From a virus, in the IMG/VR virus record IMGVR_UViG_3300005515_000451, positions 1-26,443 of that record: 26,443 bases of DNA; one strand, given 5' to 3'. Position numbers and translations under genes: made by a program. The first letter of the stretch is position 1, and each line of letters begins with the position of its first letter. Positions 1,171 to 23,216 of the stretch are shown one piece after another. The notes under the pieces are model-generated. The model worked only from the letters and a program-made list of their open reading frames with translations. It ran no database searches and was not told the origin of the DNA.

Positions 1171-1338
1171 GCTGAATTCTAGCCATCCAAGCCAACGGGG
1201 CAAGATCGTGTAACGTGTTCGATCCATGTGGCTACCGGGCGTGGGCTGTTACATCGCCGGCCGAATTGCTGCGACGAGGACCTCCCTCGTCATCGACGGC
1301 GCGCCATGGACGGTCGCTATATACACCCAAGTCGAGAA

Positions 1339-2161: not shown

Positions 2162-2173
2162 TGCCGAGTAGCG

Positions 2174-2263
2174 CCCTTAAAAATCGGCGTTCCGATTAGT
2201 ATAGAGAAGTCAAAGCGTTACGAGCACCGAGAGGTGCGTATGGTGTAGTGCCGATTTAAGGGG
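2174..2263. repeat. Inverted repeat enclosing two hairpins
   Basis: CCCTTAAAAATCGGC (2174-2188) is nearly complementary to GCCGATTTAAGGGG (2250-2263), differing by two extra A residues. Inside are a 6-bp hairpin AATCGG-CGTT-CCGATT (2182-2197), which competes with the outer pairing, and a 5-bp hairpin GCACC-GAGA-GGTGC (2224-2237) with a GNRA-type loop. This could be a mobile-element end, a MITE-like fragment or a structured RNA. The sequence shows the pairings; the function is unknown. Confidence 0.5.
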
Positions 2264-2354
2264 ATTTTGGCGCTGATTTGACCGCCAAAAAACCCTCTTA
2301 AGGGGGTCCATAACCAACCGATCGCGGCACGCGAGCGGAAACGCCAGCGACATG

Positions 2355-2438
2355 ACAGATAATTACATAAAATTACGGATTATCGATAACATCTGTACAG
2401 ATAATTACACTTCATCGACTGATTATCGACAAAGCCAC
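2355..2438. repeat. Two tandem copies of a ~42-bp AT-rich unit
   Basis: ACAGATAATTACA occurs at 2355-2367 and again at 2397-2409. GATTATCGA occurs at 2378-2386 and 2421-2429, so a unit of about 42-43 bp is present twice. ATCTGTACAGAT (2391-2402) at the junction is a perfect 12-bp palindrome. The AT-rich half-sites resemble recombinase or resolvase binding sites (TGACAGATAATT against the Tn3-type half-site TGTCYGATAATT), but this is only a resemblance. Confidence 0.5.
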
Positions 2439-2658
2439 GGCGCTAACAGAGCCGCTCGCGGAGCGCGCCACCACGGGGCGCCGTAGCGAGCAATCGGAGC
2501 AGAAAATTACAGGCACCATTCAGCACGTCGACCAACGGATTGAGATTGGGGTCGATCGTGACAAACAGCGCGCTTCGATCAGTTGCCCATTTCGGCAGCG
2601 GCCTCACCCATCTCCAACGGGTTGAGTTCAGAGGATGTTCTTTCGCATATCGCAAAAA

Positions 2659-3102
2659 TCACTTGCTCACAAACGTATAACTTCCATCTCTATATCTAAA
2701 GACACCCCCACCAGCCCAACCATCACCAGATGCGCGAACCAAATAGTCTTGATTTTCATCGAGATTATTCGCCGGAATCAAAACACGGAAACCATTCGGA
2801 AGCCTTCCATATTCTAAACTCGATAGAGTTATGCACTTTGGGGCCGAAGAAATAGACCAAACAACCTCGGCCCGATCAACGAATGCTCGCCTTACACTTA
2901 TCGAGGTAAAGCATGGCAGTTTACTTGAAAACAATTGGTTATTTTCGAAGGAAAATATCGGGCGTCCGGAATGTCCAGATATTTTCACGTCAACACCGCG
3001 CTCGCACCCAGACAACGCCAAGAAGGTCATCGCAAGCAACGACCAACTCACAACACCGCACATTGATTTCAAAACGTTTGCCCTCATCGACCGTAAGATC
3101 AT
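2659..3102 (-). CDS. Lipoprotein, candidate immunity protein for the Rhs toxin tip
   Basis: A 147-residue protein of no recognised family. The N-terminus has a hydrophobic segment followed by the lipobox LSGC, predicting a lipid-anchored protein exported to the periplasm or outer membrane. Its ATG at 3102 overlaps the Rhs stop codon as ATGA, so I prefer this start to the upstream ATG at 3114 or the internal one at 3087; overlap implies translational coupling. Base composition is AT-richer, like the Rhs tip next to it and unlike the Rhs core. A small gene coupled to the variable C-terminal end of an Rhs gene is the classic immunity position. Periplasmic location suggests that the toxin would act there. 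This function is inferred from context alone. Confidence 0.75.
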   Translation of the reverse strand: MILRSMRANVLKSMCGVVSWSLLAMTFLALSGCERGVDVKISGHSGRPIFSFENNQLFSSKLPCFTSISVRRAFVDRAEVVWSISSAPKCITLSSLEYGRLPNGFRVLIPANNLDENQDYLVRASGDGWAGGGVFRYRDGSYTFVSK

Positions 3103-6100
3103 TTCGCTGAACACCCCCCCTGGTCCTCAGCGCGCAGACAACTGCGCACATGTTCTAGTTCTGTCGCCCTCGGAGCATCCCCAGAGTCCCTTTTCGCCAC
3201 AGAGTCCCCCACGACTTGAGCTTGCTGCTCATAATGCAGCGAGCCGAAATCCGTTTCCCCGGTCACACTCTGTATATCGTATGGGTCTAACCCTTTTGAC
3301 TGCATACCCAAGGAGTCTTCCGCAATCTTCGTGGGGCCAAGCAGGAAGCCAATAACGTTCTTATACTGCCAAATATGTGTGGTTTCATGAGAAATTAATT
3401 CTCGCGGATTCATCGGCAAGCTTCCATTATCAACCGACATATCTGCACTGTAATAATTTGGCCTGACATAAATTGTATGACCAAGAGTAATAGCCGGTGT
3501 GCCACCAGCAAAGGCAGCCTTCGCTATCAAATTAAGACCAGAACCAGATTTAATATCGACCTTACTATATGGCACATTCGAACCGAATATCGATCTCAGG
3601 AGACTGAGTTCGCCCTTCGTGTAGGGGCGCAGCCCGGTGGGATCGGTCCGATTCAGCGGGTCATTGCCAACGTAGGCGTACCAGTTGAGACCTGCATTGT
3701 AGCCCGAGGGGTCGGTTTGTAGAAACCGCCCCAGGGTGGGAGAATAGGCCCGGGCCTTGTAGTGGTACAGCCCCGCCTCCGGCAGCCAGATCTGGCCGGT
3801 GTATTGGAAACGGCCGACATTGCCGGCGGCGGGGACGCCGTATTCGTCATAGGTGTTGGTCCAGGCGGCGACGCCCGCGGCGTTGGCCACCGCCACGATC
3901 GAGCCTTGCGGATCGGCCAGCAGCCAGCGGCGGTCGGCGACGCCGGCGCCCTCGTACCAGGCGACCGGCGCATCGGTCCCGGGGCCGGGCACGTAGCGGC
4001 GCAGCAGGGTCGCGCCGTTGTACTCGGCCACTAGGTCCGAACCCGAATAGAGGAACCGCGTCGCGGCCCCGCCGCTGGCCACCGACCACAGGCGGCCCAT
4101 AGGCTCGTAGACCAGGCCGGCCGTTCCGGCCGAGGTCAGGTTGTTGAGCAGGTCGTAGCCGTAGGCCGTGGCGCCGTCGTTGCGCAGGTTGCCGCGGCCG
4201 TCATAGGCGACCGCCGTCCCCGCCACCGTGGCGTACTGGTTCAGGCCGTTGACGGTGTAGGCCTTGCTGGACTGGCTCCCGCTCCACTCGTAGAGGCTGT
4301 TCGTGGCGGTGCGGGTCTTGATCTGGCCGGCGGCGTTGTAGGCGAAGGTCCAGGTCTGGTCCTGGGCCGTTCCGGCCTGGTCGAGCACCAGGCTCGAAAG
4401 CCGGGACGCGGCGTCATAGCCGTAGTCTTCGGAGACGGCCTGAGCGCCGACGCCTTGCCAGGCGTAGTCGCGGCGACCCAGATCGTCATAGGCGTAGGCC
4501 GCGATCCGGGTGACGCCCTGTTCGTAGATCCCGGTCATCGCCCCCGACGCATCGTAGCCGTAGGTGACGTAAAAGGCCGGAGCGCTGTCCGGCCAGGTGA
4601 TCTTGGTGCGGCGGCCAGCCGGGTCGTACTCATACGACATGGTCAGGCCGTTGGTGGTCTCGCCGGTCATCCGGCCCAGGGCGTCATAGGTCGCCGTGGT
4701 CGCGCCGCCGCCATAGGTCGCCGAGGTCCGCCGGCCCAGATTGTCGTAGCCGTAGGCCTCGCCGCGCAGCCCGTTCTGGACCCGGTTCAGGGCGTCATAG
4801 GTGAAGGTGACGACCGAGCAGTCGAGAGCGGCGGTGGAGTCGCGGCGCCGCCAGGTCTTGCGATTGCCGGCCTCATCGTAGCAGTAGCCGTCATAGTCGG
4901 TGGTCGAGGATCCGCCGCCCGAGGCGTTGGGATAGCGAACCTTGGCCAGCCGGTCCAAGCCGTCGTACTCGTAGGTCGTCAGGTTGCCCTTGCCGTCGGC
5001 GACCGTCTGTTCCTGGCTGTTGGCCGTGTAGGTCACGGCCTTCTCGACGCGGGGATCAACGCCGTAGCCCGAGGTCACCTTGGTCAGGCGACCGATGGTG
5101 TCGTATTCGCTGTAGGTGATCCGGTCGGGGCCGTCCGCGCCCTGGGCCCCCAAGATGCAGGCGTCCGGCGTCGAGCCGAAGGCGGCCGGGTTCATCCGCA
5201 CGGTCGAGCAGGTCAGACGGCCCAGGATGTCGAAACCGTAGGCGCTTTGCGCCACCGCCGAACCGTCCGTGCCGTAGGTGGTCTTGAGGACGACTCGCGC
5301 CTGGGCGTCGAAGTCGTTGACCGTCCGCGTCAGGTTCTGGAAGCCCGAGGGGAACAGGCTGGGGCTGGTCACCGTGCCCACATAGGCCGTCGAGACCTGG
5401 CCGTCGGCGCGATAGTCGGTCTTGCTGGCGCGATAGAGCAGCGGGCCTGAACCGTCCGGATCGGGCGTGACCTGGCCGATCTCCCAGCGGGAGTCGTCAT
5501 AGTAGGACTGGACGACGTCGCTCGTCCCCGCCAGCGGCCCGTCGACCACGGTCACGTCGCCGCGGTCGTTGTAGGCGTAGGTGGTGGTGGCCGACAGCGA
5601 GTTGTCGCCCGCCCGGACGGTCTTGGAGACCAGCCGCACGTTGTTGGGTTGGCTGCCGTCCTCGTAGGCGTATTGGGTGACCGTCTCGTCGGCCGTGCCC
5701 ACGCAGGCGGGAGCCTCGCCCGTCGCACAGGCGGACATCTTGGTAACGCGCCTGACCGGCGCGCCCGTCACCCAGGCGCCATTGACGATGTAGCGCGCGG
5801 TGAACGTGCCGTACTCAAAGCGGATCTGCGGCCGCTTGGTGTTGGGCGCCGTCGGCTGGGTGACGCTGGAGAGCTCGCCCGTGACGGAGTCGTAGCCGTA
5901 GTCGGTCTGATTGCCGCGCGCGTCCCGCGTCCAATCGGGCGACTTGCAGTTCTGGCCGCCGGCGAAGGTGGGCCGGCAGCTGTAGCCGGCCCGCTCGACG
6001 ACCGCCCCGGCAATCGTCGTCGCCTCCGGGTTCACGCCCGCCGGAGTCCCCTTGGGGATATGCCATTTAGCTGTGACGTTCAGGTTGCCGTCCATCACGT

Positions 6101-7403
6101 ACCAGAAACGGTCACCCTCCGGCAGGGTGACTTGCTGGATCTTGCCCGCGCCCGGCTTGCCCTGATCGTCGCCGATATATTGGTAGGTCGTTACTCGCCC
6201 TTCGCTGTCGGTGTCGCTGATCACGTGGCCGTTGGAGGTGCGCGACACGACGATCCGCTTCTTGCCCAAGGGATCGGTTGCCGTGGTCGTCAAGAGACCG
6301 TCGGTGGGGAGATATTGGGTCCCGACCGACGACCAGGTGTCGACAACGTAGTTGTAGCTGTAGGTCCAGGTCGAAACGCCGTCGGTGAACGAGGTCACCC
6401 GCATCTTGCCGTCGTCGGTCGTGGTGTCGACGACGTAGGTGCGCTGGTTGTCTCCCGTCGCGTTGCGGAAGGTGATGGTGAACGGCGCGCCGACCGGCGC
6501 GCTGACGGAGCCCGTCAGGCCGCGCCCCCGAGTGATCTCGTCGGCATAGGTCGGGCCCGAGCATTGAGTCGCGTCGCAGCCGCCGTTCTTTAGGTTGGCC
6601 GTAACCGGCGCCACATAGGGCGAGAACGCGCCCCCGCTGGACCCGACCATGGCGTAGCCCAGGCTGCTCTCGACCTTCATGTGCGGGTCGAATCCGGTCG
6701 TGCGGCTGAAGGTCAGCTTTTCACCAGTCGGATAGGTCAGGCTGGTGATCAGGCCGATCGGCGTGGGGTTGTTGCTGCTCCAGACGCGCTTTTCGAAGGT
6801 CGCCACCCGGCCGTCGGCCCCGGTGTAGACGATCTCCGAACCCGAGGAATTGAGGGTGCCAGTGGTTTCGCCCACTCGAATGGAACCGTTCCGAAAGGTC
6901 AGGCTCTCGCCTTCCAGGACGATGTTGGTGAAAACGTAGTGACCATCGTCGGAAAGCTGGAGATAGGAGGTCGGCGACGATCGCGTCGTCGTGTCGAAAT
7001 AGTTGTTGGTGCTGGCCAGGCCGCGGGCCCCCGCGCCGCCGATGCTGTTGACCGTCTCGCTCACCGAATAGCCGCCGGTGATCAGGTTCACCCCGACCGA
7101 ATCGGTGGCCGAATAGACCGGCGGCCGAAGCTCCGCCGGGTGACCCACGCCGTCGGTCGGATCGGGTTCGACCTGCACATTGGTCACTGGTGCGGCGATA
7201 TTGGCCTTGGCCGAGGTCGCCCGGGCGGCGTCGCCGTCGCCCTTCTGCGCCGCCTGGCTGTCGGCTGGCGGAGCCTCGACCACCGGAGGCGCGGTCTCCT
7301 GTGCCTGGACGGCGCGAACCGACAGGATCGAGGCTGCGCACAGCGAGATGGCGGAGGCGGCAAGGCACGCGCGAACGCGCGACGAGAACATTGAAATCTT
7401 CAT
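3099..7403 (-). CDS. Rhs/YD-repeat protein with C-terminal HETTH metallopeptidase-like tip
   Basis: A 1434-residue polymorphic-toxin-like protein. Residues 1 to about 34 form a Sec signal peptide ending near VQA, so export by Sec is likely. YD repeats (for example YGYDNLGRR, YEYDPAGRR, YAYDDLGRR) fill the middle. The Rhs core hallmark follows (GLYHYKARAYSPTLGRFLQTDP, then NDPLNRTDPTG). The last 176 residues (from about 1259) form a distinct tip with HETTH at 1339-1343 and HYEQQA about 50 residues later. This fits a zincin with His, His and Glu ligands, as in DUF4157/'vgr-related' domains. The tip DNA (about 3099-3629) is AT-richer than the core, consistent with tip exchange. It sits between a small secreted protein gene and a coupled lipoprotein gene. 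Toxicity and metal binding are inferred, not shown. Confidence 0.9.
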   Translation of the reverse strand: MKISMFSSRVRACLAASAISLCAASILSVRAVQAQETAPPVVEAPPADSQAAQKGDGDAARATSAKANIAAPVTNVQVEPDPTDGVGHPAELRPPVYSATDSVGVNLITGGYSVSETVNSIGGAGARGLASTNNYFDTTTRSSPTSYLQLSDDGHYVFTNIVLEGESLTFRNGSIRVGETTGTLNSSGSEIVYTGADGRVATFEKRVWSSNNPTPIGLITSLTYPTGEKLTFSRTTGFDPHMKVESSLGYAMVGSSGGAFSPYVAPVTANLKNGGCDATQCSGPTYADEITRGRGLTGSVSAPVGAPFTITFRNATGDNQRTYVVDTTTDDGKMRVTSFTDGVSTWTYSYNYVVDTWSSVGTQYLPTDGLLTTTATDPLGKKRIVVSRTSNGHVISDTDSEGRVTTYQYIGDDQGKPGAGKIQQVTLPEGDRFWYVMDGNLNVTAKWHIPKGTPAGVNPEATTIAGAVVERAGYSCRPTFAGGQNCKSPDWTRDARGNQTDYGYDSVTGELSSVTQPTAPNTKRPQIRFEYGTFTARYIVNGAWVTGAPVRRVTKMSACATGEAPACVGTADETVTQYAYEDGSQPNNVRLVSKTVRAGDNSLSATTTYAYNDRGDVTVVDGPLAGTSDVVQSYYDDSRWEIGQVTPDPDGSGPLLYRASKTDYRADGQVSTAYVGTVTSPSLFPSGFQNLTRTVNDFDAQARVVLKTTYGTDGSAVAQSAYGFDILGRLTCSTVRMNPAAFGSTPDACILGAQGADGPDRITYSEYDTIGRLTKVTSGYGVDPRVEKAVTYTANSQEQTVADGKGNLTTYEYDGLDRLAKVRYPNASGGGSSTTDYDGYCYDEAGNRKTWRRRDSTAALDCSVVTFTYDALNRVQNGLRGEAYGYDNLGRRTSATYGGGATTATYDALGRMTGETTNGLTMSYEYDPAGRRTKITWPDSAPAFYVTYGYDASGAMTGIYEQGVTRIAAYAYDDLGRRDYAWQGVGAQAVSEDYGYDAASRLSSLVLDQAGTAQDQTWTFAYNAAGQIKTRTATNSLYEWSGSQSSKAYTVNGLNQYATVAGTAVAYDGRGNLRNDGATAYGYDLLNNLTSAGTAGLVYEPMGRLWSVASGGAATRFLYSGSDLVAEYNGATLLRRYVPGPGTDAPVAWYEGAGVADRRWLLADPQGSIVAVANAAGVAAWTNTYDEYGVPAAGNVGRFQYTGQIWLPEAGLYHYKARAYSPTLGRFLQTDPSGYNAGLNWYAYVGNDPLNRTDPTGLRPYTKGELSLLRSIFGSNVPYSKVDIKSGSGLNLIAKAAFAGGTPAITLGHTIYVRPNYYSADMSVDNGSLPMNPRELISHETTHIWQYKNVIGFLLGPTKIAEDSLGMQSKGLDPYDIQSVTGETDFGSLHYEQQAQVVGDSVAKRDSGDAPRATELEHVRSCLRAEDQGGCSAK

Positions 7404-7419
7404 GGTGGAGCCCCCGCCC

Positions 7420-7689
7420 TTAATCGTAGTACTCGGTCTCGACGACCACGGTGATCGCCGAGGACGCCGTGCCGGCTTGAGTGAGCGCGCCGCCCTCGCC
7501 CAGCACCCGGCGGCCAGAAAACGCCGCCACGCAGCGGCGCGCCAGCTTCGTTGGCCGATTGATTGCTGCGCCCGCCCTCATACCCGGCTGGGCCGGCCCC
7601 GCCTGGCCGGCCGCCAACGCTCCGATCGGCACGGCGACCAACGTCGCGCCGGCCACCGCGCTCAACACCAATCGCATCAAAATCCCCAC
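7420..7689 (-). CDS. Small secreted protein upstream of Rhs
   Basis: An 89-residue protein that I do not recognise. It begins with a short basic start and a hydrophobic alanine/valine-rich segment ending ALAAGQA, a typical Sec signal peptide. The mature part has a central basic stretch and ends ITVVVETEYYD. The stop lies 16 bases before the Rhs start, on the same strand, so the two are probably cotranscribed. An alternative start is the ATG at 7677. It may be an accessory, chaperone-like or unrelated envelope protein; nothing in the sequence decides this. Confidence 0.65.
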   Translation of the reverse strand: MGILMRLVLSAVAGATLVAVPIGALAAGQAGPAQPGMRAGAAINRPTKLARRCVAAFSGRRVLGEGGALTQAGTASSAITVVVETEYYD

Positions 7690-7877
7690 CGAGTCCGATG
7701 CTCAAGCTTCTAACAGATACCCGCTCTCGTTGTCTCGCACGCGCTCTCAATTCGTTTGAGGATCGCAGCTTGACCGAGGACTTTTACCTTCGGGCGTCTG
7801 ACCGCCGATCGCTCATCTCCCAGGCCGAACCGCAGCGGCGGCGACCTGAGCCGAGCGTGGACGCTGGGCGGGACGCA

Positions 7878-8135
7878 ATGACGTGTGTTTCCGTACGACG
7901 GGTCGCCGAGGCGACGAAGGAGCGGCTACGCGACGAAGACGGCAAATACCGTCGCGAGCATGTTCGCGCGGTAGCTCAGCGCGTGGAAGTCATCTCGCCA
8001 AACGAGATGCGGATCATGGGAAATAGGACCGATTTGCTGAGAACCTTGGCCGCCTCGGCAGGCGAACAATCGGCGGTTCTCGGCGTTCGCATCCTTAAAC
8101 CGAAGTGGCGCACCCGACACGATTCGAACGTGTGA
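7878..8135 (+). pseudogene. Remnant of a serine recombinase C-terminus
   Basis: Plus-strand fragment reading KYRREHVRAVAQRVEV, then EMRIMGNRTDLLRTLAA and ending KPKWRTRHDSNV. From memory, this pattern matches the C-terminal end of alphaproteobacterial large serine recombinases (RALAQRVEV, EVRIMGSKSELLRTLVAA, VPKWR). No resolvase catalytic domain or DNA-binding zinc ribbon precedes it; upstream sequence in the same frame is not recombinase-like. The last ten codons run antisense through the tRNA-Arg 3' end. It appears to be the scar of an older element inserted at the same tRNA. The fragment start is arbitrary. The call rests on pattern memory and needs a database comparison. Confidence 0.55.
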
Positions 8136-8467: not shown

Positions 8468-9631
8468 CTATTTGGCTTTTCGGCGTTGCCGGTTTGGCGC
8501 AACGAACGCGTCATCGCTGGACTGCGCAGCGGGACTTTTCCGGGAGTTGATGGCGTCCCGCAGTCCTGAATTCAGAGCGTGGGCATAGACCAACGTCGAC
8601 TTGATATCGGAATGGCCCAGCAGATCCTTGGTCGCCGCTAGGTCGCCGGTCATGGCCAGGAAGTCGGTCCCGACGTGGTGGCGAATGCTGTGAATGAGGC
8701 GGTCGTGATCTACGCCGGCACGCTCGGCGGCCTTGCGCAGGCGGCTCTGCATGGCGGCGTAGGAGACCGTCACCAGTTCGCCGCGCTCGTCGCGCTCAAT
8801 CCAGATGCTATCGAGGTCCGCCGCCTGGGCGATGCCGGCGCGGGCCGCGATCTGGCGGGCGTCCACCAGGCGCAGCGGCATCAGCATCGGCTTGCCGCCC
8901 TTGCGTTTGTTGATGGCAACGCTGGGGCCGCGCGGCGTGTCGGGCAGGTAGGCGGAGGGGCGAAAGAACAGCTCGCCGAAGCGCAGGCCGTAGGCCATCA
9001 GCAGTTCGAGGGCGAAGCGCTCGGTGGGGCCGCAGGCGTCGGCCCAGGCCTGTTGATACGGGTCGGAGAAGTGCCGGATATCGGTCTCGGCCTCCGGTAG
9101 GGCGAGGGTTTTCCAGTCGATCTTTTGCAGGCCCTTCACCTGCCAAACGTTCTCGGCGCGGTTCAGGATGGGGCGGATGCGCTTGATGATGTCGCTGTTC
9201 ACCGTGTCGTTGGACAGGGCGTAGCGCTGGGCCTTGCGGGCCGGGGCGCCGGCCTGAGCGGGCACGTCGAAGCCCCGCGCATAGGTCTCGCCACGGCGGC
9301 GTTCGATCGCGCTGGCGATTGTCTTGGTGCTGATCTCTTCGAGCGGCGTCTGTGGACCAATCAGGCGGATCATGATGGCGAGCCGGTGGAAGATGATCCG
9401 CGCGGAGTCGCGATGCTGGCCGACCTCTTGCCACCAGCGGCCGGCGGCGGCGTCGAGCGTCAGGCGGTCGCTTGCGGCGGGGAGCCCGAGCGCGACCCTT
9501 TCGCGCTCCTTGCGCTCGAACGCCTCGGCTTTCCGGAGGGTTTCCATCCCGGTAGAGCCGTGAAAGCGACGACCTTTGAACTGGAAGTCGTAGGCATAGA
9601 AACGGCTTTTCGCGGGCTTGTAGACAGACAT
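8468..9631 (-). CDS. int: Phage tyrosine integrase
   Basis: Site-specific tyrosine recombinase that inserts and, with the excisionase, removes the prophage at the tRNA-Arg site next to it. It has 387 residues, a normal size. An N-terminal arm-binding segment (about 1-55) and a core-binding helical domain (about 60-165) precede the catalytic domain. Catalytic residues visible are Arg217 in YGLRFGEL, a Lys near 243-247, His314 and Arg317 in HSIRHH, His340 in LLGHS and the nucleophile Tyr349 in TLVYAH. The set is complete, so the enzyme should be active. The ATG at 9631 has an AGGA at suitable distance and lies inside the end of the preceding excisionase-like frame. Confidence 0.95.
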   Translation of the reverse strand: MSVYKPAKSRFYAYDFQFKGRRFHGSTGMETLRKAEAFERKERERVALGLPAASDRLTLDAAAGRWWQEVGQHRDSARIIFHRLAIMIRLIGPQTPLEEISTKTIASAIERRRGETYARGFDVPAQAGAPARKAQRYALSNDTVNSDIIKRIRPILNRAENVWQVKGLQKIDWKTLALPEAETDIRHFSDPYQQAWADACGPTERFALELLMAYGLRFGELFFRPSAYLPDTPRGPSVAINKRKGGKPMLMPLRLVDARQIAARAGIAQAADLDSIWIERDERGELVTVSYAAMQSRLRKAAERAGVDHDRLIHSIRHHVGTDFLAMTGDLAATKDLLGHSDIKSTLVYAHALNSGLRDAINSRKSPAAQSSDDAFVAPNRQRRKAK

Positions 9632-12205: not shown

Positions 12206-12628
12206 CTAGGCCGCCATGCCGATGGTCGGCACGTCGGGGCGCGCGACGTCGAGGGCGCGGCGCAGGGCGGTGACGCCTCGGCCTTCAAGATAGGCCCAGC
12301 CCAGGAACCGCGATTGCTCGCCATCGTCGATCGCGAAGAGCGACACGCCCTGGCGCGGCTCGTCGTCGCCGAACACGTGGATTTCGGCGTCGAACATCTG
12401 CAGGGCGCCGCCCTTGCGGTCGCGGTGGATGGTCGCGACCAGGTCGGCGAGGGTGGCCAGCAGCACCGGCCGGCTGTGCGGGTCAGTGGGTTTGCGGACG
12501 AGGGCGAAACGGGCGGTGATGGCCATGCGGGGTCTCCGGAAGCTGGCGAGGGCGTGGGCCACGAACTGACCGTGGCGGGCGAGGTCCTGGGCGCTGGGCG
12601 CCCAGGGGTTGGGGGCGGTGCGCGGCAT
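12206..12628 (-). CDS. Unknown phage protein
   Basis: A 140-residue protein of no recognised family. The start at 12628 overlaps the stop of the ParB-like gene as TGATG, and this fits the compact operon better than the much longer open frame running on upstream, which would be antiparallel noise over the ParB gene. The C-terminal half (MFDAEIHVFGDDEPRQG, then SRFLGWAYLEGRG) looks like a folded beta-rich domain. A second possible start lies at an internal ATG (MAITARF, codon 35). No function can be assigned. Confidence 0.65.
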   Translation of the reverse strand: MPRTAPNPWAPSAQDLARHGQFVAHALASFRRPRMAITARFALVRKPTDPHSRPVLLATLADLVATIHRDRKGGALQMFDAEIHVFGDDEPRQGVSLFAIDDGEQSRFLGWAYLEGRGVTALRRALDVARPDVPTIGMAA

Positions 12629-14370
12629 CAGGACTCGTCGTCCTCGGCGTCTTCGTCGGGCTCGTCTTCGAGGTCGTCGCCGTCGTCCAGTTCGTCGGGC
12701 ATCGCCTCGGCGCCGTCGTCGATGGCCTTGAGGTCGGGGCCAGTGAACAGCGGCGCGCCGAGGGCGTGGTTGAGGGCCAGGGCCTGGACGCGGCGGAGCG
12801 CTTCGAAGCCGGGGCCGGGAGCCCAGGCCAGCAGCTTGCCGTCGGCGTCGTTGAGGACGAGACTGTCGCCGTCGAGGCCGACCGTGAACGGCCCCTTGAA
12901 GCCGAAGCCTTCCATGACCGTCGACAGCTCGGCGGAGAAGTTGAAGGCCAGGCCGTCGGCGAGGGCGACGTTGGCCCGGAATTCGAAGTTGCGCACGGCG
13001 CTCAGGAAGGCCTGGGCCTGGGCCTTGTCGGCCTCGATCTTCTCGCGTCGTTCGGCCGCCTCGCGTTCGCGGGCTTCTCGCTGCGCGGCGGCTTCGGCTT
13101 CCTCGGCCGCGTCCTGCGCCGCCTTGGCGTCGGCGAACGCCTTGCCTTCCGGCGTCAGCTCGAACGGGCCGTTGAGCCACGGCGTGAGATAGCGGCCCTC
13201 GGTGTCGGCCTGTTCGGCGAGGTCCGCGCCGACGGCGGCGGCGCGCAGGGCGAGAAGCGCCGAGGCGCGGCCGTTCGGGGCCATGATCCCAGGAATGGCC
13301 GCGCCGATCTGCGACCACGCCTCATGACTTCCCAGCTTTACGCGATGATGGAATTGCCAGGCCGTGGGGCCTTCGATTGACAGCAGGCCGCGCCCTTGGA
13401 GGGCCTGGGCCAGGGTGTCGGCGGTGGCCTCGGCGGCGCAGTCGGCCTCTTGCCACCAGCTGATAGCCGATGAGCCCTCGTCGTTGCGGCCGATATGGGC
13501 GACCACCTCGCCCAACATCAAGGCCTCGGCGGGCGTCAGCTCCAGGGGCTTGGGCCGGGCCGCGATGCGCTTGAGCGCTTCGTGCACCGTCAGCTGGCCC
13601 TGGTCCATCTGGCGCTTCTCGGCGTCGGTCAGCTTGAGCAACCGCAGGCGCTGCTGGACGAATTCGCGCGACTTGCGCTTGGCCTTCTCGGCCATCTGGG
13701 CCGTGTTCCAGCCGTTGCGCTTCATGATCCGTTCGAAGGCTTCGGCCTCTTCGAGCGGGGTCAGGTCTTCGCGTTGCAGGTTCTCCAGCAGGGCGCCGAT
13801 TTCGTGGGCGGCGTCGTCGATGGCCTCGACCTTGACCAGGATGGGAAAGTCGCGGTCGAGGTCGCCGCGCTCGATGGCTAGGCCGATGGCGCGCCAGCGG
13901 CGTTCGCCAGCCACCAGTTGGTGGATCGGCAATCCCTCGGCGTCGGGATCGGCGTCGGCCTCGCGGACTTCGAGATTGGTCTTCAGGCCGCGTTCGGCGA
14001 TGTCGGCCGACAGCTCTTCGAGCGCGGCCTTGTCGAACTTCTTGCGCGGGTTGAACGCGCCGATGCGGACCTGACGATGGAACAGATAGGCGTGACCCTC
14101 GGGCGGGCGAACGGCGTTCGCATCGACGGCCACCGGGGTCAGGCCGTTGGCGCGATCGAGGGCTTCGAGCGCGGCCAGGCCGGCGGTCGTCATGGCCACG
14201 GGGTTGCGGGTGATCAGCCCATCCTTCTCCAGCGAGGTCAGGTCGCGGGTCATGTTGCCGGGCAGGCGGCCAGCCTTCCGCGCGAGGTCGCTGTTGTCGG
14301 TGAAGCCGCCGGCCTGGATGGCGCGCAGCAGGGGTTCGGCGGAGACGGCAAGCGGAGTCAGGGCGTTCAT
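12628..14370 (-). CDS. ParB/Spo0J-like phage protein
   Basis: A 580-residue protein. Residues about 8-75 look like a winged helix domain (SDLARKAGRL, LTSLEKDGLITR). The ParB N-terminal domain follows, with NPRKKFDKAALEELSADIAE (107-126) and the nucleotide-binding box GERRWRA (155-161). The central ParB helix-turn-helix region includes ENLQREDLTPLEEAEAF (196-212). A long alanine/glutamate-rich coiled-coil region lies in the last third, and the tail is highly acidic. It is about twice the usual ParB length. No ParA gene is next to it, so plasmid-type partition is not indicated; phage ParB-like proteins may act as DNA-binding or nuclease proteins. The start at 14370 has AGGA ten bases upstream and is preferred to 14418. 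Confidence 0.85.
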   Translation of the reverse strand: MNALTPLAVSAEPLLRAIQAGGFTDNSDLARKAGRLPGNMTRDLTSLEKDGLITRNPVAMTTAGLAALEALDRANGLTPVAVDANAVRPPEGHAYLFHRQVRIGAFNPRKKFDKAALEELSADIAERGLKTNLEVREADADPDAEGLPIHQLVAGERRWRAIGLAIERGDLDRDFPILVKVEAIDDAAHEIGALLENLQREDLTPLEEAEAFERIMKRNGWNTAQMAEKAKRKSREFVQQRLRLLKLTDAEKRQMDQGQLTVHEALKRIAARPKPLELTPAEALMLGEVVAHIGRNDEGSSAISWWQEADCAAEATADTLAQALQGRGLLSIEGPTAWQFHHRVKLGSHEAWSQIGAAIPGIMAPNGRASALLALRAAAVGADLAEQADTEGRYLTPWLNGPFELTPEGKAFADAKAAQDAAEEAEAAAQREAREREAAERREKIEADKAQAQAFLSAVRNFEFRANVALADGLAFNFSAELSTVMEGFGFKGPFTVGLDGDSLVLNDADGKLLAWAPGPGFEALRRVQALALNHALGAPLFTGPDLKAIDDGAEAMPDELDDGDDLEDEPDEDAEDDES

Positions 14371-14460
14371 CGACTCGGTATCCTGAATTTGGGGATGGGT
14401 TGCGCCCGGCGGCCCCATGCCAGCCGGGCGCGGCCACCTGGGCCGGGGTAGTGGGTAAGC

Positions 14461-16724: not shown

Positions 16725-17306
16725 CTAGCGGGGGCTCATATTCTTGACCTTCGCCGCCCATAGGATCTCCTGATCAAGCAGCGAGCCTTCCGTTTGCGAC
16801 ATGAGATGGTAGAGCCCGCTGGTCTTGCTGGGCTTAACTTGCTTCACGAGAATACGGCCATCGGGCAGGCCGACCACGCACAGTTTGCCATACAGATCCG
16901 GGGTTACGGGCGACCTGACGTCGTCATAGAACACCAGCCATTCCGAGAAGATTGGGCCAAGGCTCTCGCCTCGAATCTCAACTGCGACAGTCTGAGCTGT
17001 CGACCCTGGCGGTGCTGGCACGTAGTCAAAAGGTCCCTGGCCTGCCGAGAACAAGACGGCTTCGGCGCCAGCTTGGACATAGCCCACGACAGGAACGGTC
17101 GACTCGCTGCTGGACGCTGGCTCTAGGTCGGACGGACTCAGGCCTAGCGCGGCGGCAACTCTTTCAACATCGTCGCGACCTGGTTCGGTGCGGCCCCTTT
17201 CCCAGGATGAAATGGTGGTTTGGGCCTGATTGATCGCCTCGGCTAGGCGAGCTTGCGACCAGCGCTTGGTCGTTCGCGCGGCCGCGATCCGTTCCCCGAT
17301 ATGCAT
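16725..17306 (-). CDS. Phage repressor: XRE helix-turn-helix plus S24 self-cleaving domain
   Basis: CI/LexA-type repressor that maintains lysogeny. Residues 1-58 form an XRE helix-turn-helix (WSQARLAEAINQAQTTISSWERG). The C-terminal S24 peptidase domain has the cleavage dipeptide Ala79-Gly80 in VQAGAEA, the catalytic Ser115 in IRGESLG and Lys155 in ILVKQV. All parts needed for RecA-stimulated self-cleavage are present, so SOS induction is likely. The start at 17306 keeps the operators (17352-17378) upstream of the gene. ATGs at 17348 and 17381 would place operator DNA at or inside the start of the coding region and are less likely. It probably binds the two identical AGCACGTTTTGTGCT sites flanking its gene. 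Confidence 0.9.
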   Translation of the reverse strand: MHIGERIAAARTTKRWSQARLAEAINQAQTTISSWERGRTEPGRDDVERVAAALGLSPSDLEPASSSESTVPVVGYVQAGAEAVLFSAGQGPFDYVPAPPGSTAQTVAVEIRGESLGPIFSEWLVFYDDVRSPVTPDLYGKLCVVGLPDGRILVKQVKPSKTSGLYHLMSQTEGSLLDQEILWAAKVKNMSPR

Positions 17307-17351
17307 TTCAGCACACTGCTGCGTCACGGAGTCGCGGTCTAATGACATTTC

Positions 17352-17378
17352 GTGCTTGTCATAAGCACGTTTTGTGCT
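17352..17378. promoter_or_regulatory. Right operator region between repressor and Cro-like gene
   Basis: Two overlapping palindromes: GTGCT-TGTCATA-AGCAC (17352-17368) and AGCAC-GTTTT-GTGCT (17364-17378), sharing the central AGCAC. The second is identical to the left operator. A good -35 element TTGTCA (17356-17361) lies within, so repressor binding here would block rightward transcription of the Cro-like gene. Confidence 0.72.
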
Positions 17379-17390
17379 CATTTCTGAGCT
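17356..17390 (+). promoter_or_regulatory. Predicted rightward early promoter, possibly giving a leaderless mRNA
   Basis: TTGTCA (17356-17361) is a good -35. A weak -10-like CATTTC (17379-17384) follows after 17 bases, the usual spacing. The operator fills the spacer. Transcription would then start about at the ATG of the Cro-like gene (17391), which would explain the lack of a clear Shine-Dalgarno. The -10 match is poor. Confidence 0.4.
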
Positions 17391-17633
17391 ATGCGAAGCC
17401 ATGCAGATATAGTCCGCAGCTACGGAGCCTCCGCCTTTGTGCGCGACCTCGCGGCCCGTGGCGTAAAGGTTCATCAGTCGACCCCGCAACGGTGGGCTGA
17501 CCGCAACTCCATTCCAGGGGAATACTGGAGCGCGGTTGTTGGGGTCGGCGCGGCAACGCTCGAAGAATTGGCGACCGCAGCAGAAGCGGCGTTGATCGCA
17601 AGGGCGACAGACGCCAACCGAGAGGCGGCCTGA
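17391..17633 (+). CDS. Cro-like helix-turn-helix regulator
   Basis: An 80-residue DNA-binding protein that opens the rightward operon. The N-terminal ADIVRSYGASAFVRDLAA followed by STPQRWADRNSIPGEYWSAVV is the pattern of small Cro/YdaS-type phage regulators, where the second helix (TPQRWADRN) contacts DNA. It is divergent from the repressor across a 27-bp operator region. It probably opposes the repressor at the shared operators. The Shine-Dalgarno is poor; see the promoter feature for possible leaderless translation. Confidence 0.78.
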   Translation: MRSHADIVRSYGASAFVRDLAARGVKVHQSTPQRWADRNSIPGEYWSAVVGVGAATLEELATAAEAALIARATDANREAA

Positions 17634-17839
17634 TGCTGGTCGCCCTGCCCGTTCTCGAGCCGGACGCCGCCGCCGGGCGGCGCCGCCCCGAACACCATCG
17701 CCGCGCCGACATCGTCGTCGGCGTCTTCCCGCAATCGCATCGCCTGTCTCCCGACCCCGCCAAGGGCGTCGGCAACCTGACCGCGTTGCGCTCGCCCGTC
17801 ACCCAGAAAGCCAAGCCTGAATTTCGGAGGGTTCGTTGA
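17633..17839 (+). CDS. Small unknown phage protein
   Basis: A 68-residue arginine- and proline-rich protein without recognisable domain. Its ATG overlaps the upstream stop (TGATG) and its own stop overlaps the next gene's TTG start (TTGA), the pattern seen throughout this operon. That positional evidence is the main support. A strong minus-strand open frame also crosses here but has no plausible start context. It may be a real but fast-evolving early gene. Confidence 0.45.
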   Translation: MLVALPVLEPDAAAGRRRPEHHRRADIVVGVFPQSHRLSPDPAKGVGNLTALRSPVTQKAKPEFRRVR

Positions 17840-18270
17840 ACCGTCGTCGCCACGCCATGCTCGCCCGCCAACTGCTGGAGGCCTGCGGAACCCTAGCCGA
17901 GGCCTCGGCCGCCACCGCGCGCCGGATCAGCGTGCCGCAGCTGTCGGACTATCAGAGCCCGCACGGGGAAAGCTTCATGCCGGCCGATGTCATGGCCGAT
18001 TTGGAAGCCTATTGCGGCAAGCCGCTGTATAGCCGCGCCCTGTTCGAGGCCCGCCCCGACGTGGCCGAGGCCCTGGATTTGGTGGCCGAGGCCTGCGAAG
18101 CCGCCGAGGGCGTCACCGACCTCCAGCGGGCGGTGCGGCTGGCCGCGTCGGATGGCGTGATCACGCCTGCCGAACGCACCCGGCTGGAGCGCCAGCACGC
18201 CAAGGCCACCGAAGAGCTGCGCGATGTTGGCCTGGTGCTGTCGCGGGTCGGCAAGGGCGCTGGCCAATGA
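17836..18270 (+). CDS. CII-like phage regulatory protein
   Basis: A 144-residue protein. The segment ACGTLAEASAATARRISVPQLSDYQSP, then FMPADVMADLEAYCGKPLYSRALFEARP, resembles phage CII-family regulators, which have a helix-turn-helix followed by a helical region. A second helical part (VTDLQRAVRLAASDGVITPAERTRLERQ) lies toward the C-terminus. The TTG start at 17836 has GGAGGG four bases upstream and overlaps the previous stop, so it is preferred to the ATG at 17857. The position after the Cro-like gene agrees with control of establishment or early transcription. The family assignment is moderate. Confidence 0.65.
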   Translation: MNRRRHAMLARQLLEACGTLAEASAATARRISVPQLSDYQSPHGESFMPADVMADLEAYCGKPLYSRALFEARPDVAEALDLVAEACEAAEGVTDLQRAVRLAASDGVITPAERTRLERQHAKATEELRDVGLVLSRVGKGAGQ

Positions 18271-19642: not shown

Positions 19643-20037
19643 GCCTCGTCCGCTTCATGTTCATCCCCGGAGAGGGGATCAGCCGCCGAGACGGGCAACG
19701 CCACCACATTTCGGCGCCGAAGCTGCGTCGGCTCTATGGCGAACCGATCGTCACCCTCCGCCCCAAATCGTGGGTTTCGCCCAGCCGGATCCCGGCTGGG
19801 CTGAGCGACGAGCGGGTTAGCCGCTTCTATGCGCAGTGGTGGCCCTGGGTGATCCCGCTGACGCCGCGCCATGACGGCGACTATTCGCTGACCAAGGCCG
19901 TCTTTCGCTGGGCGCCGTTCGCTCTGACCGCCTTCAAGGAACGGATGGTCAAGTCCGAGGCCCGTCTCGCGGCCAGCCTGCAGCGGTGCGCCGACCTGGG
20001 CGCGCGTTTGGAAGCGTTCGAGCGGCGGTCGGCATGA
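19639..20037 (+). CDS. Unknown phage protein
   Basis: A 132-residue protein with a GTG start that overlaps the previous stop (GTGA) and a stop that overlaps the methyltransferase ATG (ATGA). The N-terminal half is strand-rich and basic (KLRRLYGEPIVTLRPKSWV), with an aromatic stretch FYAQWWPWVIPLTP. The end is a helix (KSEARLAASLQRCADLGARLEAFERR). No domain is recognised. Longer in-frame extension upstream is antisense-like noise over the preceding gene. Confidence 0.65.
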   Translation: MSLVRFMFIPGEGISRRDGQRHHISAPKLRRLYGEPIVTLRPKSWVSPSRIPAGLSDERVSRFYAQWWPWVIPLTPRHDGDYSLTKAVFRWAPFALTAFKERMVKSEARLAASLQRCADLGARLEAFERRSA

Positions 20038-21179
20038 TTAGGATTTTTCACGGCGATAGCCGGGAGGTTCTGCGCGGCCTTCCCAGCAACTCGATCGACG
20101 GCAGCGTTACCGATGCGCCTTACGCCCTGGTCTCGATCGGCAAGCGCTTCGGCTCCCAGACGGCCGCGCCCGTGCGCGGAGAAGGGGCCAGCGGTGTATA
20201 TAAACGCGCCTCGGCGGGCTTCATGGGCGAGTCCTGGGACACGGGAGAGACCGCCCATGATCCGGAATTCTGGGCCGAAGTCTGGCGGGTCTTGAAGCCT
20301 GGCGCGTTCCTGGTGGCCGCCGCCGGCACGCGGACTTATCACCGGCTCGCGGTCGCCATTGAAGATGCTGGGTTCGAAATCCGCGACATGATCACCTGGC
20401 TGTACGGCACGGGCTTTCCGAAGTCGCACAACCACGACATCGGCGGCGAGATGCACGGAACGGCACTCAAGCCGGCGTGCGAGCCCTGGGTGTTGGCGCG
20501 CAAGCCACTGGCCGGGACCGTGGCTGAGAACGTGCGCCTGTACGGAACGGGCCTGCTGAACATCGACGGATGTAGGATCGGCGCGGCTGCTGGCGATGAA
20601 CCGCTCAAGTGGTCGACGCCGCGAGGCGGCATCTGGTCCACCGACGCCCAGGCCCAGGCCCAGGCCCAGGACAAGGGGCGGTGGCCGGCCAACGTTGTGC
20701 ACGATGGTTCGCCGGAGGTTGTCGCAGCTTTTCCGATGTCAGATGGCCAGCGCGGCCATCTGACCCCCACCGGCCGAGCACGGCCGTCGCGGGTGGCCTA
20801 TGGCGACATGGGGCCGCCGGTCGCGCATGCGGCGCGAGGCGACACGGGTTCGGCGGCGCGGTTCTTCTACAGCGCCAAGGCCAGCAAGGCCGACCGCTGC
20901 GGATCTCTGCACCCGACCGTGAAGCCGATTGCGCTAATGCGGTGGCTTTGCCGCCTTGTCGTGCCGCCGGGCGGTGTCGTGCTTGATCCGTTCGCCGGGT
21001 CGGGCAGCACGGGCGCGGCGGCGTGGCGTGAAGGCTTCGGGGCGGTGCTCATCGAGCGCGAAGCGCGTTGGGTCGATGACATCCGCCGCCGCATGGCGTT
21101 CGAACGGGCGATGATTGCGCCAACACCTCGGGCGGTGCTCGGCGGGGTCGGTGTCACTGGTGAACGGCTGGTGGCATGA
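20034..21179 (+). CDS. Beta-type (N6-adenine or N4-cytosine) DNA methyltransferase
   Basis: AdoMet-dependent DNA modification enzyme of 381 residues. The catalytic motif IV is DAPY (27-30, a variant of DPPY) near the N-terminus and the AdoMet motif I, DPFAGSGSTG (318-327), is near the C-terminus; this order marks the beta group, which includes CcrM. Motif-like VLKPGAFLVAAAG (about 88-100) and TGFPKSHN (about 124-131) lie between, and the target-recognition region is central. An Ala-Gln run (four GCCCAG repeats, 20646-20669) occurs in a likely loop. No restriction enzyme is adjacent, so it is an orphan, probably protecting phage DNA or altering host methylation. The ATG at 20034 overlaps the upstream stop. 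Confidence 0.9.
   Translation: MIRIFHGDSREVLRGLPSNSIDGSVTDAPYALVSIGKRFGSQTAAPVRGEGASGVYKRASAGFMGESWDTGETAHDPEFWAEVWRVLKPGAFLVAAAGTRTYHRLAVAIEDAGFEIRDMITWLYGTGFPKSHNHDIGGEMHGTALKPACEPWVLARKPLAGTVAENVRLYGTGLLNIDGCRIGAAAGDEPLKWSTPRGGIWSTDAQAQAQAQDKGRWPANVVHDGSPEVVAAFPMSDGQRGHLTPTGRARPSRVAYGDMGPPVAHAARGDTGSAARFFYSAKASKADRCGSLHPTVKPIALMRWLCRLVVPPGGVVLDPFAGSGSTGAAAWREGFGAVLIEREARWVDDIRRRMAFERAMIAPTPRAVLGGVGVTGERLVA
20646..20669 (+). repeat. Four GCCCAG hexamer repeats inside the methyltransferase gene
   Basis: Four perfect tandem copies of a 6-bp unit encode Ala-Gln repeats. The unit length keeps the frame, so copy-number change would lengthen or shorten a loop and not switch the gene off. Confidence 0.75.
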
Positions 21180-22129
21180 GTAACAGCGCCATGACCTGGG
21201 CCTGGTCTCAGCGCGACCCGTCGCCGGGCGCGTTGCTGGTGCTGGTCGCTCTGGCCGACCACGCCGGCGACCATGCCGGCGAGGATTGGACGTGCTTTCC
21301 GAGCGTCGAGCGGCTGATGGATTTCACCAATCAGAGCCGCGCCACGGTCGAGCGTCACCTCGCCTGGCTGGACACCGAAGGCTTCATCAGCAGGACGAGG
21401 CGTAAGCTCGCTGGTGGGCGATTGGGCGTCTACGATTACGTGCTGCACCGCGTCCGTCGGGTCGATCCGGCCCCCTCGGCCGAGGTCGACTCCGGGCGTG
21501 ACCACACGTCAAATTGCAGCATGGACCATGCGTCAAATTGCGGGTCCACCATGCGTCAAAATGAGGGAAGCCATGCGTCAAATTGCGGCATCTCTATAAC
21601 CCCCATAGAACCCTCAGTAGAACCCTCAGAGCGCGAGCGCGCGAGCGACGACGACGTCGAGAGGGTCGCGGCCGAGGTCTTGGCCGCTTGGGGCGAGCAC
21701 CAGCACCGGTCGAGTCGGCGAGAGGTTGCCAAGGCGCTGCATCGCGAGGTCAAGGCTGGCGCGGACCTGGCCCGGATCAAGGCGGCCTGCGTCTACTACG
21801 CCGCTCGCCGATCGATGTGGGGCGTCTCGTCCGTCCCCCTCGCCCCCCACAAGTTCGTCGCCGAGGGCCGATGGGAGACGATCGCGGGCGTCATCGACCG
21901 TGGCGATGGCTCGGCGGGGGCGCGAACGGCGTTCGCTTGCGCGAAGGTCCGCGCCGCCGTGGTGGCCGAAAAGGGCGATGCTTTCGCCACCAGCTGGCTG
22001 GACCCCTGCGGTTGGGTCGAGGCGACCAAAACCATAACCCCCGGCCTGCGGACGCGCGGCGACAAGCTGAGATCCGAGGTCGGTGACGTGTTGAAAATCC
22101 TGGGCGTACGAGTGGAAGGGCAAGGCTGA
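21176..22129 (+). CDS. Phage replication initiator-like helix-turn-helix protein
   Basis: A 317-residue protein. The N-terminal 85 residues form a replication-O-type winged helix: LLVLVALADHA and CFPSVERLMDFTNQSRATVERHLAWLDTEGFISRTRR. A low-complexity linker (about 100-160) follows and is encoded by DNA carrying four iteron-like repeats. The C-terminal half (EVLAAWGEHQHR to KFVAEGRW) is helical and could bind the helicase loader or helicase, as in lambda O. No separate DnaC- or DnaB-like gene is visible next to it. Its ATG overlaps the methyltransferase stop and its stop overlaps the NusG-like start. The initiator role is inferred from the domain and the internal repeats. Confidence 0.75.
   Translation: MSNSAMTWAWSQRDPSPGALLVLVALADHAGDHAGEDWTCFPSVERLMDFTNQSRATVERHLAWLDTEGFISRTRRKLAGGRLGVYDYVLHRVRRVDPAPSAEVDSGRDHTSNCSMDHASNCGSTMRQNEGSHASNCGISITPIEPSVEPSERERASDDDVERVAAEVLAAWGEHQHRSSRREVAKALHREVKAGADLARIKAACVYYAARRSMWGVSSVPLAPHKFVAEGRWETIAGVIDRGDGSAGARTAFACAKVRAAVVAEKGDAFATSWLDPCGWVEATKTITPGLRTRGDKLRSEVGDVLKILGVRVEGQG
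21504..21590 (+). repeat. Four iteron-like repeats: probable phage origin of replication
   Basis: CGTCAAATTG occurs at 21507-21516, 21531-21540 and 21576-21585, with a one-base variant CGTCAAAATG at 21554-21563. The wider unit is close to ATGCGTCAAATTGCGG. Spacings are 24, 23 and 22 bases, about two helical turns. Copy 3 is in another reading frame than copies 1, 2 and 4, so the conservation is at DNA level. An AT-richer stretch with two TAGAACCCTCAG repeats follows (21606-21630). As in lambda, the origin would lie inside the initiator gene. Confidence 0.72.
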
Positions 22130-22704
22130 TGGGCGCGATGTTGAAGACGGAAGTGGTGGTGTCGAGCGCTCAGGAAGTGGCCGTTGAGCCGGCTCCCGTG
22201 CGGCGCTGGCGCGTGGTGCAGACCAAGCCCCATGCGGAGCGGGTGGCCAAACAGAACCTCATCCAACAGGGATTTGAGGTCTATCTGCCGATGGCGCTGA
22301 CTGAGGAAGAGGCGACCCCTCGACGGCCCAAGCGTCGGATGATCCGGGCTTTCATCCCCGGCATCCTGTTCGTGCGGTTCGAACCGACTATCGACCAGTG
22401 GCGGTCGATTGGGTCGACGGTCGGCGTTAGCGCGGTGATGATGGTGGGTGACAAGCCCGCCTCGGTCCCTGACCGCGAGGTGCAGACCATCATGGATCGG
22501 GAAGAGGCAGGTATGATCCGCCTGGCTTCGCGGGCCTCGGTCAAGGCTACCTGGAAGCAAGGTCAGGCCGTCCGGCTGGTCGGCACGTCATGCGACATGG
22601 ATGCCGTGTTCGAAGAATTGCTTGACGAGAATCGGGCCGTGATATTCGTAGAGCTTCTCGGGCGCATGTCCCGACAGGTTGTCACTCCGCTCCTACTGAG
22701 GTGA
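22129..22704 (+). CDS. NusG/RfaH-like transcription antitermination protein
   Basis: A 191-residue NusG paralogue. After a 25-residue leader, the NGN domain begins WRVVQTKPHAERVAKQNLIQQGFEVYLP and continues through IPGILFVRF, the core strand that binds RNA polymerase. The C-terminal 47 residues (GQAVRLVGTSCDMDAVFEEL onward) match a KOW domain. The size and gaps agree with specialised NusG proteins and not with the housekeeping copy. It is the last gene before a strong hairpin and the packaging genes, so it may let polymerase read through into the late genes. ATG overlaps the upstream stop (TGATG). Confidence 0.87.
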   Translation: MGAMLKTEVVVSSAQEVAVEPAPVRRWRVVQTKPHAERVAKQNLIQQGFEVYLPMALTEEEATPRRPKRRMIRAFIPGILFVRFEPTIDQWRSIGSTVGVSAVMMVGDKPASVPDREVQTIMDREEAGMIRLASRASVKATWKQGQAVRLVGTSCDMDAVFEELLDENRAVIFVELLGRMSRQVVTPLLLR

Positions 22705-22799: not shown

Positions 22800-23216
22800 A
22801 TGCCTGACATGCCGCCCAACTATCGGCCGCCGTCCGCGCCGACGCGGCGCGAGACGAACAAGGCGGCTGACCATCGGCGCGGATCGGCCCGACAGCGCGG
22901 ATACACCACGGCCTGGGACAAGGCGTCCGCCGGCCACATCCGCAACGACCCGCTCTGCCGCTACTGCGACCTGGCGGGCGACACCGTCCCCGCCACACTG
23001 ACCGACCACCTCTATCCGCATCAAGGTCAGCAATGGCTGTTCTGGCTCAAGCTGTTCTGGGTCAGCTGCTGCAAGCCCTGCCATGACCAGTGGAAGCAAC
23101 GCCTCGAACGCCAAGGCCTGATGGCTCTTGATGACCTGGCCCAACGTCTGGGCCTCCCCACCCTGGCCGCACACCTCGCGGACCTCGCTCGCCAGGGTCG
23201 CGACCCACGCGACTGA
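22800..23216 (+). CDS. HNH endonuclease of the packaging module
   Basis: A 138-residue HNH protein next to terminase. The motif shows CRYC (about 53-56), TDHLYPHQ with the catalytic His, and CKPCHDQW with the CxxCH zinc knuckle and final His. The order fits the HNH proteins that assist terminase cleavage at cos in HK97-like phages. GGAG lies six bases before the ATG. The C-terminal part (ALDDLAQRLGLPTLAAHLADL) is helical. Its location directly before the terminase small subunit gene is typical of cos phages. Confidence 0.88.
   Translation: MPDMPPNYRPPSAPTRRETNKAADHRRGSARQRGYTTAWDKASAGHIRNDPLCRYCDLAGDTVPATLTDHLYPHQGQQWLFWLKLFWVSCCKPCHDQWKQRLERQGLMALDDLAQRLGLPTLAAHLADLARQGRDPRD

Follow-up and report, generated by a model that had tools for sequence, protein, structure and literature searches.

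The region 21503-21629 of the window (the whole stretch of DNA analysed here, 26,443 nucleotides of IMG/VR virus record IMGVR_UViG_3300005515_000451) is probably a prophage replication origin of the ori-lambda kind, embedded in the gene for its own initiator and made up of iterons and an unwinding element with conserved strand-capture boxes. The short repeat that follows the iterons, GAACCNTCA, recurs in related initiator genes from phages of several bacterial phyla. A broader proposal, to which we give about an even chance, is that, in phages of three or more bacterial phyla, O initiators of the HTH_36 type share an undescribed unwinding-element code. Its unit, GAACC[ACG]TCA, would recur on the coding strand at intervals of 10-12 nt and be read as single-stranded DNA by the initiator complex, whereas the iterons would be free to diverge together with the winged helix. 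The specificity of the origin would then be split between a fast-evolving duplex code and a slow-evolving strand code that differs by initiator family. Iteron origins inside a gene are familiar from lambda onwards, and the iteron part is ordinary. If the proposal is true, these origins hold a second element, widely conserved, visible by eye and changing with the initiator family, which would permit a direct test of the way in which initiators of the O type melt DNA and select a strand, and would help to find the origins of many uncharacterised prophages by a sequence signature.

The O-like gene and its surroundings

The window holds a prophage. It carries an integrase (8468-9631, minus strand), a ParB-like protein with ParB_N and HTH_ParB domains (12628-14418, minus strand), a CI-like repressor (16725-17489, minus strand), a CII-like gene (17836-18270, plus strand) and, upstream of the O-like gene, a DNA methylase (19986-21179, plus strand). 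Directly after the O-like gene come a NusG-like gene (22129-22704), an HNH nuclease (22800-23216) and then the small and large terminase subunits and the portal, to 26441. The NusG-like antiterminator gene stands in the place of lambda P; among the window ORFs scanned, none was recognised as a helicase loader, DnaB or lambda P. To the left of the integrase, positions 1-8000 encode a serralysin-like M10/RTX protein, a transposase and a 1434-residue RHS-repeat protein, a content that suggests a flank of bacterial chromosome. No tRNA was found across the window. The N-terminus of the ParB-like protein is also weakly MarR-like, and the methylase gene contains an in-frame CAGGCC tandem repeat (20646-20670) that encodes the peptide QAQAQAQAQ.

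The O-like replication initiator gene (21176-22129, plus strand) encodes a 317-residue protein that matches the Pfam family PF13730, HTH_36 (E 5.2e-9, above the gathering score); this is its only Pfam domain, the lambda O C-terminal domain not being found. The PHROG families it matches are all replication initiation or O-like (phrog_270, 4e-30; phrog_1032, 2e-18; the O-like phrog_391, 2e-14, and phrog_345, 1e-10). In a profile comparison with lambda O (hhalign), only 34 columns aligned, at 91% probability, and tblastn of the full-length protein against phages and plasmids gave no match. Residues 1-96 (21176-21463, plus strand), the predicted iteron-binding part, are modelled by AlphaFold2 as a confident winged helix-turn-helix (pLDDT 87.9) with the topology H-H-E-H-H-E-E. 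A fold search with this model returned generic winged helices, all at non-significant E-values, the plasmid Rep-DNA complex 5kbj being among these weak matches (TM 0.60, E 0.016), and a sequence search against solved structures returned generic MarR/GntR-like winged helices only.

Iterons kept as DNA

The original prediction had placed four copies of a repeat, 22-24 bases apart, within the O-like gene. Four 18-bp iterons were indeed found there, at 21503-21589, with spacings of 24, 23 and 22 bases. They share the core CGTCAAATTG, start at 21503, 21527, 21550 and 21572, and lie on the plus strand. Iteron 1 (CACACGTCAAATTGCAGC, 21503-21520) encodes HTSNC in frame 0, iteron 2 (CATGCGTCAAATTGCGGG, 21527-21544) HASNC in frame 0, iteron 3 (CATGCGTCAAAATGAGGG, 21550-21567) MRQNE in frame 2 and iteron 4 (CATGCGTCAAATTGCGGC, 21572-21589) HASNC, again in frame 0; translation agrees with the earlier reading of copies 1, 2 and 4 as HTSNC, HASNC and HASNC and of copy 3 as frame-shifted. 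With up to 4 mismatches allowed, this 18-mer family has four copies in the gene, compared with a maximum of three in 60 codon shuffles.

Three relatives, L001 (60% identity), L028 (53%) and L012 (recovered through the iteron pattern), all retain four iterons, in frames 0/0/2/1 as against 0/0/2/0 in the window. The peptide encoded at iteron 4, HASNC in the window, is PCLKL in L001, PHVNL in L012 and PCLNL in L028. The window's fourth copy is offset by one base and the offset is reversed before the boxes, by compensating indels; both the window and L012 have box 1 at a distance of 48 bases from copy 3. Since the one-base shift of iteron 4 is undone before the boxes, the DNA has been kept and the peptide has not. 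An alignment of homologues had been suggested as a check on the claim that the repeat is preserved as DNA and not as protein; once carried out, it bore the claim out, relatives at about 60% identity or less keeping the repeat DNA as the encoded peptide frame moves, with copy 4 differing in both frame and peptide.

The same was seen on a larger scale. We gathered 162 O-like genes from genomes and phages, mostly with a profile limited to the HTH domain, and dereplicated them on their linker DNA to 141. Iterons, called when at least three repeat copies scored above all 10 codon shuffles, were present in 119 of them. The spacings, with a mode at 21-24 nt, are flat modulo 3 (152/145/122), and the copies occupy more than one reading frame in 108 of these 119 genes.

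The domain that may read the iterons

Between loci, the mean similarity of the iteron consensus rises with the identity of the HTH domains, from 3.2-3.4 at identities below 0.35 to 5.2 at 0.45-0.55, 6.7 at 0.55-0.70 and 8.4 above 0.70. Against C-terminal identity it is nearly flat over the interval into which almost all pairs fall. Locus pairs alike in the HTH domain (at least 0.5) and unlike in the C-terminus (below 0.3) have a mean iteron similarity of 6.7, against 3.5 overall; for pairs of the opposite kind (HTH below 0.35, C-terminus at least 0.45) the mean is 3.0. A Mantel test of iteron similarity against HTH identity gave 0 of 500 permutations, a covariation that is in part linkage because the HTH domain and the iterons adjoin in the DNA. 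That the N-terminal domain may bind the iterons is supported by this covariation, and the view that the iterons are a locus-specific duplex code for the winged helix is well supported by these comparisons.

The E. coli K-12 phages mEp021 and mEp013 (L474 and L475) provide a natural experiment. Their HTH domains are closely alike and differ in and around the recognition helix; every iteron copy is altered in concert, and the downstream box region is nearly identical. This points the same way, towards iterons that track the HTH domain.

A strand-specific box past the iterons

Immediately after the iterons, the 40 bp at 21590-21629 (plus strand) form the predicted DNA-unwinding element. Nearest-neighbour energies rank it as the gene's least stable 40-mer (dG -50.8) and place it among the least stable 1.2% of the window's 40-mers; its GC content is 47.5%, compared with 65.9% for the window, as expected from the AT-richer stretch that had been noticed there. 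The stretch had also been credited with a repeat of its own. That repeat, TAGAACCCTCAG, is present as an exact duplicate at 21606 and 21618, but a third, degenerate unit at 21598 had been missed. Three boxes can be delimited on the plus strand: box 1 (AACCCCCA, degenerate, 21598-21605), box 2 (AACCCTCA, 21609-21616), 11 nt past box 1, and box 3 (AACCCTCA again, 21621-21628), 12 nt past box 2. What had been a side remark about TAGAACCCTCAG proves to concern the DNA feature that these putative origins share most widely.

A scan of viral contigs for GAACCCTCA-N3-GAACCCTCA yielded 13 loci; most are O-like genes, and the iterons of these genes bear no relation to the window's. Words were then counted de novo in the 330-nt linker of the 141 O-like genes. 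The top 8-mers were AACCATCA (25 loci, reverse 1) and AACCGTCA (23 loci, reverse 1); GAACCATC (21 loci) and AACCCTCA (12 loci) were never found in reverse. AACC[ACG]TCA is thus the top strand-specific word after the iterons in O-like genes whose iterons are unrelated, and the box consensus can be written [G]AACC[AGC]TCA. In the 130 linkers of protein-found genes, AACCNTCA occurs 74 times, in frames 18/39/17, and 3 times on the reverse strand. Codon shuffling gave 4.2 occurrences (maximum 10) and synonymous resampling that preserves the peptide 13.6 (maximum 26). Comparison of the sequences shows iterons and boxes alike as conserved at the level of DNA, whatever the reading frame.

The position of the box is narrowly defined. 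AACC.TCA occurs 97 times in the 70 nt past the last iteron, with none on the reverse strand, and not at all at 120-190 nt; elsewhere in the O-like genes it occurs twice in the HTH part and once in the C-terminal part. The first box mostly starts 2-26 nt past the last iteron, boxes follow each other at 10-12 nt, and the box region has a GC content of 44%, against 60-62%. O-like genes account for 110 of the 141 box pairs in viral contigs, always on the coding strand and never on the opposite one. About 11 others are in what look like O-like genes cut off by the end of a contig; the remainder are simple repeats or chance matches.

The box is not present everywhere. Degenerate-form arrays were found in 36 of the 130 protein-found loci (30 of the 36 spanning more than one frame), and one box or more, by the pattern AACCN[TC][CA]A, in only 56. 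Box-negative loci often carry looser variants (GAACCAGTCA, GAACCTATAA, AACAGTAGT, AACAGTA, GAACCTA); others have none. Boxes occur in 12 of 35 HTH clusters formed at 45% identity, and the loci are not phylogenetically independent. The profile A2, built on the HTH part only, includes members first seen through the box; the result is the same without those loci. In the open-access literature no earlier description of the AACC box repeat was found, and within that literature it appears to be undescribed. The C-terminal domain was considered as the reader of the box and rejected as unlikely, because the box-positive genes fall in 16 C-terminal clusters.

Box, host and initiator family

AACC boxes are found in the HTH_36-type O genes of Salmonella phage ST64B, of E. 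coli phage mEp460 (GAACCAGTCA, three times), of the P. aeruginosa phages TC7, LESphi3 and JBD68, and of P. otitidis phage PotUPM1, as well as in those of a Microcystis phage and an Arthrobacter phage (AACCGTCC, three times, and AACCATCC). The box thus spans phages of Proteobacteria, Cyanobacteria (L348) and Actinobacteria (L481). The lambda-type O genes of lambda, P22, PAJU2 (a P. aeruginosa phage) and the genomic locus L486 have AAAGACA-type repeats at the corresponding site and no AACC box; phi80, also lambda-type, has neither. Since phages of the same hosts carry different repeats in lambda-type and in HTH_36-type O genes, it follows, from about 10 phages, that the box goes with the initiator family and not with the host. 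The AAAGACA-type repeats parallel the AACC boxes and stand directly past iterons that differ from one another, in lambda (L013, about 39119-39150 of J02459), at the P22 origin (L470), in PAJU2 (L491) and in L486.

A possible mechanism and its precedents

A sequence of events can be proposed. The O-like protein would first settle as dimers on the four iterons, which are imperfect palindromes, with its N-terminal winged helix making the contact, as the covariation and the lambda precedent suggest. The bound complex would strain the adjoining 40-bp unwinding element, whose position and predicted stability suit this role. On the coding strand, the AACC[N]TCA boxes recur once per helical turn; they would be a sequence-specific element of the unwinding region, and most likely allow the initiator complex to capture one melted strand, by analogy with TrfA on the 13-mers of RK2 and RctB on ATCA. 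Helicase loading is assumed to come next, a loader gene not being recognised in the window. The array fits an unwinding element because of its position, length, strand bias, period and instability, and we infer that the boxes are its strand code.

In lambda, O dimers at the iterons open a neighbouring 40-bp A+T tract, with which O and P make contact once it is open (PMC5043065); O, P and DnaB bind single strands (PMC5043065; PMC7466680). The original prediction of a lambda-like layout, with iterons lying in the initiator gene in different frames, is supported: the window, like lambda, has four iterons inside the initiator gene in more than one frame (spacings 24/23/22, against 20/24/23 in lambda), a similar iteron core (CATGCGTCAAATTGCGGG, against ATCCCTCAAATTGGGGGA in lambda) and a strand-asymmetric, AT-richer tract directly past the iterons. 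Three features of a lambda-type embedded origin were found: iterons in the initiator's own coding sequence, conservation as DNA and not as peptide, and an adjoining tract that is easily melted by calculation. The two differ in that the window's initiator is of the HTH_36 type and only remotely related to lambda O, that its unwinding tract has AACC boxes instead of AAAGACA/A-rich repeats, and that its next gene is NusG-like, followed by the HNH and terminase genes, lambda P not being recognised in the window.

Two other systems are comparable. In RK2, TrfA is sequence-specific for one strand of the 13-mers TAAACnTTnTTTT, all four of which are required (PMC4081077), and GGTT repeats have been noted in this plasmid (PMC10316083). 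As in the window, short direct repeats lie in the unwinding element beside the iterons, and TAAACnTTnTTTT is partly like GAACCnTCA; however, RK2 oriV is a plasmid origin with a plasmid Rep and A+T-richer repeats, and strand binding was demonstrated there, whereas in the window it is a proposal. In ori2 of V. cholerae, ATCA repeats are bound as single-stranded DNA by RctB (PMC10316083, PMC10797057), a non-AAA+ initiator; they too are short one-strand repeats in the unwinding element, and AACCATCA contains ATCA. The initiator and the replicon are different, and the ATCA core is the only common part.

Alternative explanations

The boxes might be read by a host replication factor (DnaA, DnaB, SSB or primase) and not by the phage initiator. 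Such a universal partner would be economical, the box-positive genes being unrelated in their iterons and having C-termini of at least 16 unrelated kinds, and it would suit the range of the box over three phyla; but phages of E. coli/Salmonella and of P. aeruginosa carry AAAGACA or AACC according to initiator family, and the box is, by eye, unlike the DnaA box. We consider this explanation unlikely, though worth keeping in mind. A role in RNA, for instance as a Rho or antitermination signal, would account for boxes that are strand-specific, contain C and recur about every 11 nt, with a NusG-like gene next in the window; NusG-like neighbours, however, are not general among the annotated homologues. 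The array might also be a recombination seam between the HTH-iteron and C-terminal modules, at whose border it lies, the iterons going with the HTH domain and not with the C-terminus. Against both the RNA role and the seam, a fixed AACC[N]TCA consensus directly past the iterons, together with AT-rich instability, suits an origin element better, and lambda-type O genes have another repeat at the corresponding place; taken together these two ideas are improbable.

Slightly more improbable still is an operator role, in which the repeats would let the O gene or operon regulate itself instead of serving as an origin. Autorepression would suit a winged-helix protein whose own gene contains palindromic sites, but the sites lie about 330 bp into the gene and are followed by an unstable AT-richer tract, as in lambda and P22, and the annotated homologues are replication proteins beside P- or DnaB-like genes. 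Least credible is that the repeats are preserved for their peptide, as a low-complexity linker such as HASNC... or EPSVEPS. The boxes do favour the EPS reading frame (62 of 101), to which some peptide tolerance or preference contributes; yet all three frames are occupied, most iteron and box arrays use more than one, and resampling with the peptide fixed falls far short of the observed number of boxes. For the iterons, a peptide-level repeat is refuted by the multi-frame copies and by iteron 4, whose DNA is retained with a changed peptide. Because boxes stand in all three reading frames, those of the putative origin could be rewritten with synonymous codons or transferred to a site outside the gene with the protein unchanged.

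Further searches

A profile scan of genome contigs gave 70 candidates, none of them confirmed. In a DNA scan of genome contigs for box pairs with spacers of 0-9 nt, almost all of the matches listed were chance and L118 was the sole O-like gene among them; searches at order or family level around G087, G012 and G400 were too sparse to inform. Two related viral contigs have a GAACCCTCA pair (TTGAACCCTCATATGAACCCTCAAATGCACCC) at a site not covered by an ORF of 120 codons or more (L017, about 3190-3225; L023, about 5974-6009), possibly an intergenic origin or chance. A scan of viral contigs for iteron pairs returned the close relative L012, two palindrome loci and chance matches. These two loci carry palindromic repeats built on the window's iteron core, CTACCGTCAAATTGACGGTAG at 1350-1470 of L005, where they apparently lie within an HTH gene on the minus strand, and ACGTCAATTTGACGT at 741-800 of L007.
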